Shown: in pieces, positions 20,991 through 26,454 of the stretch
Numbering within the stretch: position 1 is the stretch's first letter
Layout of the letters: every line of letters starts with the position of its first letter
Assembly (NCBI GenBank): GCA_030431485.1
Contig: JAUIIR010000020.1
Coordinates: 1-59,026 of the forward strand
Direction: 5' to 3'
Origin: Alphaproteobacteria bacterium
GTDB lineage: Bacteria; Pseudomonadota; Alphaproteobacteria; Rhodobacterales; Rhodobacteraceae
Length of the DNA stretch: 59,026 nucleotides
Notes under the pieces: model-generated
Told to the model about the DNA's origin: nothing
What the model saw: only the letters and a program-made list of their open reading frames with translations
The model's database searches: none
Program-made: the position numbers and the translations under genes

Positions 20991-21701
20991 ATGCGCGTAC
21001 TTTTGGTCGAAGATGACCCGACCACGTCGAAAAGCATCGAATTGATGTTGAGCAATGCCAATCTGAACGTCTATTCCACCGATCTAGGGGAAGAAGGCAT
21101 CGATCTGGCCAAGCTTTACGACTACGATTTGATCCTGCTTGATTTGAACCTGCCCGATATGAACGGCTTTGACGTTCTCCGGCAATTGCGGCTTGCCCGT
21201 ATCGAAACGCCTATCCTGATCCTGTCAGGCAATGATGCCAGCGAAGACAAGATCAAGGGCTTTGGCTTTGGCGCTGATGATTACCTGACGAAACCCTTTC
21301 ACCGCGAAGAACTAATCGCACGAATCCACGCCATTATCCGTCGGTCAAAAGGCCATTCTCAGTCGATTATCCGGACCGGCAGGGTTGAGGTCAATCTTGA
21401 TGCCAAAACTGTGCAGGTCGAAGGCAATACCGTGCATCTGACAGGCAAGGAATACCAGATGCTCGAACTGCTTAGCCTGCGCAAAGGCACAACGCTGACC
21501 AAGGAAATGTTCCTGAACCACCTCTATGGCGGTATGGATGAACCTGAGCTCAAGATCATCGACGTGTTCATCTGCAAGCTTCGGAAAAAACTGTCCGAGG
21601 CGACAGGCGGTGGCAGTCACATCGAAACCGTCTGGGGCAGGGGCTATGTGCTGCGCGACCCCGAGGTCGAAGCGGAAGGGCGGATCGCCATCGGCGCATG
21701 A
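20991..21701 (+). CDS. ctrA: Cell-cycle response regulator CtrA
   Basis: A 236-residue OmpR-type response regulator. The receiver starts '[20 protein letters not shown]', with Asp51 in '[10 protein letters not shown]' as phosphoacceptor and 'ILILSGND' plus 'DDYLTKPFH' as the conserved Thr/Ser and Lys regions. The winged-helix domain ends '[14 protein letters not shown]'. In Rhodobacteraceae CtrA is not essential and controls motility, gene transfer agents and related traits; in Caulobacter it controls the cell cycle. The ATG at 20991 follows ggagaaacc. A CtrA box in its own leader and the interrupted sciP upstream complete the module. Confidence 0.96.
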
Positions 21702-21842
21702 CTGCGCTCTGCAGTAAAACCGCACCAATCAGATGCCATCCGAAGCGCCCAAACCGCTGACTTGTCCGACGCGACAGTGTTTAAGTGTCGTTTCAAATCT
21801 GGACGCTGTGCCACCCCCGGCCTATCACTCTGTCCAAGGTAA

Positions 21843-26071
<4,229 letters not shown>

Positions 26072-26089
26072 CCACTTTTGTTCTCAAAT

Positions 26090-26104
26090 GTTCTCATAAA
26101 GTTC
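26090..26104 (+). promoter_or_regulatory. SOS (LexA) box GTTC-N7-GTTC
   Basis: The bases 26090-26104 read GTTC-tcataaa-GTTC, an exact match to the alphaproteobacterial LexA operator. A further GTTC lies 10 bases upstream (26080) and an inverted GAAC at 26128-26131. The box is 53 bases before the start codon of the small peptide gene. Confidence 0.75.
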
Positions 26105-26157
26105 TTTACAGACCATTGGGAATATGAGAACAAAGAGGCAACAAGGAGGACGACACA

Positions 26158-26292
26158 ATGATGCAACGGATCAAAACCTCGCTTCACACCGTTAAAGCCC
26201 AAACCAATGCGCCGCTTCTTCAGGATGCACTTGGGGCAATGTCATTGGTGGTGATGTTGGTGGCTGCGTTGCATCTGCCGGTGCTTGTCTGA
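26158..26292 (+). CDS. 44-residue single-span membrane peptide under SOS control
   Basis: The frame encodes 44 residues: a basic amphipathic N-terminal half with four Lys/Arg residues, 'PLLQDALGAM', and one hydrophobic span 'LGAMSLVVMLVAALHLPVLV' to the C-terminus. A near-perfect ribosome site aaggagg (26143-26149) lies 8 bases upstream. A LexA box lies upstream and a rho-independent terminator downstream, which strongly suggests an independent, DNA-damage-induced gene. I recall similar 'LLQDALGA' peptides in Rhodobacteraceae but no function. The design resembles Caulobacter SidA, an SOS-induced inner-membrane division inhibitor, though no sequence similarity is claimed. Confidence 0.7.
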   Translation: MMQRIKTSLHTVKAQTNAPLLQDALGAMSLVVMLVAALHLPVLV

Positions 26293-26420
26293 CCTGTTAC
26301 CTTTTTCTGCCTGCGTGTTTTGCCTGAGCGCTCATTCGCATCCTGTCCCAACTGATGCACCTGTCCCAGAAGGCCGCCTGCCTTCAGAGTGATCATGGCC
26401 CCAACGAACACGTCACTGTA

Positions 26421-26454
26421 CCGCCGCCTTCATTCGAAGAGCGGCGGTTTTTTT
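26421..26454 (+). terminator. Terminator of the SOS peptide transcript
   Basis: The arms ccgccgc (26421-26427) and gcggcgg (26441-26447) are followed by seven T (26448-26454). The 128 bases between the peptide stop and this hairpin hold nothing I recognise. Confidence 0.9.

Follow-up and report, generated by a model that had tools for sequence, protein, structure and literature searches.

A Candidate SOS-Induced Bifunctional Transcript in Rhodobacteraceae: a Small Membrane Peptide Gene Followed by a Structured RNA

Introduction

What is encoded by the short DNA segment that follows recG in the Rhodobacteraceae, a large group of photosynthetic and marine bacteria, and under which signal would it be expressed? 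The question is raised by contig JAUIIR010000020.1 (assembly GCA_030431485.1) of a member of this family, analyzed here in full as a window of 59,026 nucleotides (nt). A first-pass annotation had described a 44-residue membrane peptide gene under SOS control, listing a GTTC-N7-GTTC box, an extra GTTC, an inverted GAAC, a ribosome binding site, a 44-codon frame and a terminator, and all of these are present where it placed them (Table 1). Judged by sequence comparison, the locus looks like the source of an SOS-induced bifunctional transcript composed of a membrane peptide message and a 3′ RNA. Reading it as a peptide gene only was right about the gene and missed a conserved structured RNA located between the stop codon and the terminator. 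Our literature search, in which supplementary tables were not covered, found no description of the peptide gene or of the 3′ RNA, and no account of how Rhodobacteraceae restrain division after DNA damage.

Results

The exact GTTC-N7-GTTC sequence occurs five times in the window (2.19 expected), and 6 of 100 shuffled versions reach five or more copies, so the count in the window alone is weak evidence. Because this count was not significant, conservation had to decide. An exact box was found closely 5′ of the gene in 30 of 30 loci selected by the peptide alone, and its distance to the start codon is exactly 68 nt in all 17 loci of the same genus. Chance occurrence of the box was rejected on the basis of its retention in these 30 loci, and the proposal of LexA control was supported by operator conservation. 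The four additional exact copies in the window (15755, 18470, 40034 and 54132) have less AT-rich spacers and are probably chance occurrences.

A promoter logo was prepared from 160 non-identical modules derived from 176 loci. The layout consists of GTTC at −10 (88–94% per position), GTTC-N7-GTTC at 0–14, TTTAC at 15–19, TGAGAACAAA at 35–44 and CAAC at 49–52 (91–100%). Conservation of the main box, of the TT that follows and of most of GAACAA was built in, since these bases belonged to the patterns used for selection; no such effect applies to the upstream GTTC, the TAC of TTTAC or CAAC, which lay outside these patterns. The inverted GAAC noticed in the first reading is present at 26128–26131, although its membership in a conserved facing element, GAAC-N7-CAAC, had been overlooked. 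This element can be read as a degenerate operator oriented toward the first. In an R. sphaeroides-like genome (L181) it is an exact GAAC-N7-GAAC, which supports the interpretation of the usual form as a weakened second LexA operator. By their position and spacing, TTTACA and GAACAA may serve as −35 and −10 regions. The operator then overlaps the putative promoter and is conserved in relatives, as found in alphaproteobacterial LexA regulons.

A contig scan with the promoter pattern alone identified at least 118 loci, and the peptide gene, whole or cut by the end of the locus, was found 3′ of the pattern in 117 of the 118 listed. Among 80 of these loci, the strict peptide motif was present in 73, the peptide was recognized by eye in five, and the locus ended within the gene in two. 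The loci comprise 111 that belong to the module set, two duplicates carrying the peptide, two short Paracoccus versions that had been filtered out, two cut loci with a visible N-terminus, and one (L152) that ends 77 nt past the start of the box; six of the 117 positive loci, two of them cut, were judged by eye. The genera are presumably all Rhodobacteraceae, a few bins being labeled Rhodobacterales or Alphaproteobacteria only. Counted by genome at the level of the order, the pattern was present once each in 144 of 196 genomes, and the reversed control in none.

In the organism's own genome, TGTTC-N7-GTTC was found at 49 sites, compared with 19 for the reversed control. Thirty of the 49 were retrieved (the site of the present locus was among the 19 left out) and 26 could be read, the other four loci being short. 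The same operator precedes known SOS genes: lexA (TIGR00498, 179 bits, above the cut-off), an error-prone DNA polymerase (NF004225; the 400 residues compared score below the cut-off for the whole protein) and the MmcB gene (PF06319, 154 bits). Boxes were also found 5′ of ImuA- and ImuB-like proteins, which have weak family matches. Many of the other readable boxes, with their GC-rich spacers, seem to be chance occurrences. As far as operator conservation can tell, the peptide locus is almost certainly controlled by LexA.

Another LexA-type box of this genome (L197, G000:C67:13181-13196) lies 5′ of a gene whose product, judged by eye, combines an XRE-like N-terminus with an apparent peptidase S24 tail, possibly a second autoproteolytic repressor.

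A neutral pattern of substitutions had been named as a finding that would speak against the peptide gene. Comparison of 16 same-genus sequences showed a constrained frame: the proportions of synonymous (pS) and nonsynonymous (pN) differences are 0.388 and 0.075, with a pN/pS of 0.19 overall and 0.13 in codons 19–44. By this measure the 44-codon frame is subject to purifying selection and represents a real gene. A peptide search of 61 relatives at E ≤ 10 produced matches in all 17 genomes of the genus (that of the window counted) and in 14 of 20 other genomes of the family, 13 of these 14 below 0.05; outside the family, four of 24 genomes were matched at E 0.3–0.9, which is chance level. A 16-row profile matched 346 of 394 Rhodobacteraceae genomes (E ≤ 0.01), nearly always once, in a sample with about one genome per genus (393 genera, 345 of them matched). 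The five matches in a sample of 385 genomes of the class were all Rhodobacteraceae, the genome of the window among them. In the samples searched, the peptide is thus restricted to the family. A profile-based search for related loci gave no yield, the peptide being insufficiently conserved.

A known protein family was ruled out, as there were no matches to the peptide in Pfam or NCBIfam. No plasmid or phage record matched it either (for phages, a composite peptide served as the query), which disfavors a mobile toxin–antitoxin module. In four Paracoccus loci (L062, L118, L139 and L166) the peptide is only about 31–36 residues long and ends differently, in LWLPAILQA or a similar sequence; the G of the D..G motif is missing from L139.

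The amino acid sequences predict a short protein with a single membrane span. A 19-residue segment with a mean hydropathy of at least 1.6 was found in 159 of 160 peptides, in agreement with the first proposal, and it ends a median of one residue before the C-terminus. A basic N-terminal half had also been claimed; this is a tendency, because the net charge before the span is +1 or higher in just 95 of 160 peptides. The consensus is T-L-L-Q-D-A-x-G-A-x-[AS]-L-V-V-M-L-x-x-[AG]-L-H-L-P-G-L, with L at +15 in 156 of 160 peptides and P in 154 of 159; D and G are fixed since they served as the alignment anchor. AlphaFold2 modeled the peptide of the window with a helix at residues 18–43 and a predicted local distance difference test score of about 89–92 for residues 21–40 and 57–58 for residues 1–20 (predicted template modeling score, 0.38). 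That polar and small residues are fixed within the span favors contact with a protein over a generic pore.

Turning to the 3′ region, a script detected a terminator in 145 of the 160 modules, with a median of 175 nt from the stop codon to the end of the T run, and the start sequence CTGCC was present in 139 of these 145. In 60 bodies taken at random from the 139 and stripped of the terminator, the median z-score was −2.5 against dinucleotide shuffles, and 68% were below −2. Because RNAalifold gave little, pairing was assessed with swapped 3′ flanks and with a named structure. For 116 non-redundant bodies, the pairing obtained with their own flanks was never reached in 2000 permutations; the closing stem P1 was found in 116 sequences, the P2 hairpin in 94, the P4 hairpin in 48 and P3 in 42, the last with a narrow margin (12.79 versus 12.73 for the best permutation). 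With 24 bodies aligned by sequence only, 88% of the cells pair in P1 and P2 and 27–50% in slid versions, a control that is somewhat favorable, as the structure was drawn from one row (L044) plus the consensus and the rows were chosen from 62. Two-sided changes occur in 12 of 19 pairs of this alignment, a number equaled by 0 of 500 shuffles; P4 was left out of this covariation test due to the bad alignment of its 3′ side. One of three local RNAalifold variants shows P2 and P4, and two show little. Of 61 genomes searched with a covariance model, 19 had a match, a single one in each case; four of the 19 had also supplied training rows, and no match lay farther than 20 nt from the point where the peptide codons end. 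Sixteen of the 19 are genomes of the genus, one genus genome being missed, and none of the 24 genomes outside the family was matched.

The motif UGYCY is repeated in these RNAs, with 4.39 copies per body compared to 1.49 in shuffles, and 99 of 99 bodies exceeded their own shuffles; its unpaired probability in these bodies is 0.72, against 0.43 overall. Within the genus, the 3′ untranslated region differs at 0.144 per site, a value close to that of the promoter (0.147), and third codon positions differ at 0.295. A known RNA family was ruled out because Rfam gave no credible match: in five loci none reached the gathering threshold, and the three matches in the stretch from the window had E-values of 3 or worse, all far below threshold. 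It is very likely, on this comparative evidence, that a real conserved RNA structure exists between the stop codon and the terminator. The terminator of the window, which folds on its own, was not listed by a simple scan. A conserved coding frame and a conserved RNA fold, presumably co-transcribed, precede one terminator, as in bifunctional messenger RNAs (mRNAs).

The anti-Shine-Dalgarno sequence CCTCC is avoided in the RNA bodies (9 of 99, versus 41.3 in shuffles), which suits an RNA that is itself translated. An anti-Shine-Dalgarno role for the RNA is disfavored by this avoidance.

Table 1. Features of the locus and its upstream neighbor; positions are those of the window (bp, base pairs)
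Feature	Position	Strand	Basis or remark
Upstream extra GTTC half-site	26080..26083	+	10 bp 5′ of the main box; 88–94% per position in 160 modules, outside the search patterns
GTTC-N7-GTTC, predicted LexA operator	26090..26104	+	Exact box; kept in 30/30 peptide-selected loci
TTTACA, putative −35, continuous with the second GTTC	26105..26110	+	TAC 88–93% conserved, outside the search patterns; role suggested by position
GAAC-N7-CAAC, predicted facing degenerate second LexA element	26128..26142	+	CAAC 91–100% conserved, outside the search patterns
GAACAA, putative −10, first six bases of the facing element		+	17 bp from TTTACA
AAGGAGG ribosome binding site	26143..26149	+	Read in the sequence
44-codon single-span membrane peptide gene	26158..26292	+	ATG 26158, stop 26290–26292; conservation, constraint, predicted helix
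Conserved structured RNA body, 3′ untranslated region	26307..26418	+	Comparison across modules; z −2.18 (plus strand), +0.67 (minus strand)
RNA stem P1	26313–26320 with 26406–26413	+	
RNA stem P2	26338–26342 with 26354–26358	+	
RNA stem P4-like	26369–26374 with 26380–26385	+	
Intrinsic terminator of the transcript	26420..26454	+	Stem from 26421, T run 26448–26454; −21.2 kcal/mol, z −6.27
recG, conserved upstream neighbor	23981..26071	+	NF008164, 1104 bits; same strand upstream of 158/160 modules

Discussion

The features described suggest the following pathway. In undamaged cells, LexA attached to the two facing elements would occlude both the −35 and the −10/start region, keeping the promoter shut. 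When RecA assembles on single-stranded DNA, self-cleavage of LexA would permit synthesis of a transcript of about 0.3 kilobases (kb), extending from approximately 26140 to the terminator at 26454. Its translation would produce a peptide of about 40 residues with a mostly basic N-terminus, presumably cytoplasmic to judge by its charge, and a single membrane helix at the C-terminus that contains the conserved D, G, H and P. The peptide would most likely bind a membrane partner in the late divisome, with FtsW/FtsI/FtsN as the prime candidate, and delay septation until DNA repair is complete, as SidA does in Caulobacter. The 3′ part, which by comparison is a conserved multibranched RNA with repeated UGYCY in its loops, is probably regulatory by pairing or protein binding.

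The division role is supported by class precedent. Induction by the SOS response or by DNA damage, small size and a membrane location are shared by SidA, DidA and YneA, whose target is FtsW or FtsN, and for this reason the FtsW/FtsN complex is the first place to look. By this analogy, a SidA-like brake on FtsW/I/N is the most likely activity of the peptide, and the combination of LexA control with a division-delaying peptide appears reasonably probable. The fuller proposal, a family-fixed LexA-controlled dual transcript with a checkpoint peptide and a multi-loop RNA whose UGYCY loops either sequester an RNA-binding protein or base-pair with RGRCA sites across many mRNAs, is plausible and falls a little short of probable. 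If it is true, one molecule would set both a division brake and a post-transcriptional program under a single SOS signal.

The same small, hydrophobic, single-span and LexA-type controlled product would also be expected of a toxin that integrates into the inner membrane, reduces the proton motive force and leaves damaged cells dormant, and TisB is such an SOS-induced depolarizing peptide. A toxin of this kind is nevertheless unlikely here: the gene is present in single copy at a fixed site behind recG and is conserved across the family, the span evolves slowly with D, G and P fixed, plasmid and phage matches are lacking, and the leader is short in the genus of the window. There is also no sign of an antisense antitoxin, although no search for antisense transcripts was made, and the conserved RNA favors the sense strand. 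Small membrane proteins often tune transporters or sensors. The peptide could modulate a transporter, a protease, a sensor kinase or the gene-transfer-agent pathway and leave division untouched, a notion that draws on the presence of ctrA upstream within the window and on the link between SOS and gene transfer agents in Rhodobacter, which an excerpt discusses for Dinoroseobacter (PMC6473078). Yet apart from ctrA no neighbor of that kind was found among those checked, and the precedent is of SOS membrane peptides acting on division; we consider this modulation improbable.

A different objection concerns the RNA, which might be the main product or a mere stability or termination element of the peptide message with no function in trans. 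Short mRNAs can be protected by a stable fold at the 3′ end, the RNA has no known target, and the copies of UGYCY could have arisen simply as a consequence of loop conservation. Against this, the loops are conserved while the stems covary, and UGYCY is mostly unpaired and threefold above shuffles, neither of which a plain stability stem needs; in addition, the constraint on the peptide argues that it is not a dispensable leader. Taken together, these readings of the RNA are somewhat less likely than not.

Several observations weigh against the dual transcript with a checkpoint peptide. No divisome genes were found among the neighbors checked. The second operator half is degenerate, CAAC instead of GAAC, in nearly all members, and a simple scan found no sigma-70 consensus promoter. 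Because of the latter, the earlier claim that the gene has its own promoter rests on the conserved TTTACA-N17-GAACAA; the accompanying claim of a terminator held well. There was no profile match in 48 of the 394 family genomes, and 15 of the 20 of these that were probed (28 were outside the probe) lacked even a looser promoter pattern; in the other five the looser pattern is present, each time 5′ of a diverged short frame. As for the RNA, RNAalifold recovered from a 50-sequence alignment the terminator alone, a stem with compensatory changes, and the covariance model matched three of the 20 family genomes outside the genus and missed 17.

The locus, whose peptide can be grouped by function with the SOS membrane peptides, is set apart by its RNA tail. 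SidA of Caulobacter crescentus, and likewise DidA, is a small inner-membrane protein of an alphaproteobacterial host; SidA has 29 residues compared with about 40 in the present family, the likeness drawn here is one of description, and the excerpts that describe SidA mention no RNA tail, unlike the present locus. YneA, ChiZ and SosA, SOS division inhibitors of Gram-positive bacteria and mycobacteria, are described as small, SOS-induced, one-span membrane proteins, and the YneA span binds transmembrane segment 7 of FtsW according to an excerpt (PMC13396833). YneA and ChiZ carry an extra-membrane LysM domain in these descriptions, whereas the present peptide ends at about the end of the span. 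TisB of E. coli, a small membrane peptide under LexA control, is described as part of the toxin–antitoxin pair tisB/istR-1. The istR-1 RNA is antisense, whereas the RNA described here is on the same strand as a gene that is family-wide and in single copy.

In genome G091, which we take to be that of R. sphaeroides 2.4.1, the homologue of the peptide gene is located at 1,264,762. The nearest published architecture found is that of UdsC/RSP_7527 of Rhodobacter sphaeroides, which the excerpts describe as a transcript of about 300 nt with a small hypothetical protein and a small RNA processed from the 3′ untranslated region (PMC6238624, PMC8625941, PMC9779115). UdsC differs in that it is a 67-nt RNA with an RpoHII-dependent promoter by sequence and a 5′ end at 1,289,874, 25 kb from that homologue. 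Given the assumed identity of the genome, identity between the two loci was rejected by the coordinates; the sequences were not compared. ChvR of Caulobacter is, as the present RNA would be, an alphaproteobacterial small RNA linked to DNA damage, but an excerpt places it under ChvI-ChvG (PMC6237742) instead of the LexA control predicted here. According to the same source, no SOS box is found near mitomycin-induced small RNA genes in Caulobacter, against which the present element would be a LexA-controlled conserved RNA in alphaproteobacteria. Excerpts of two further sources were used in the literature comparison (PMC2864571, PMC4211646).

The locus is a concrete candidate for the damage-induced restraint of division in Rhodobacteraceae, and it is small enough to be deleted in model strains. 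The twelve RNA pairs with two-sided changes and the repeated loop motifs are targets for direct mutation tests.

The position behind recG, pointed out in the first-pass annotation, is fixed: recG is on the same strand 5′ of 158 of the 160 modules, and one of the two exceptions has less than 300 nt of upstream sequence. On the 3′ side, a NifU-like gene on the opposite strand was found in 130 of 160 modules. In the window, recG is the last gene of a same-strand run of ctrA, ligA and recG (20994–26071; ctrA by NF045991, above its cut-off). The cell-cycle master regulator gene ctrA is about 5 kb 5′ of the SOS locus.
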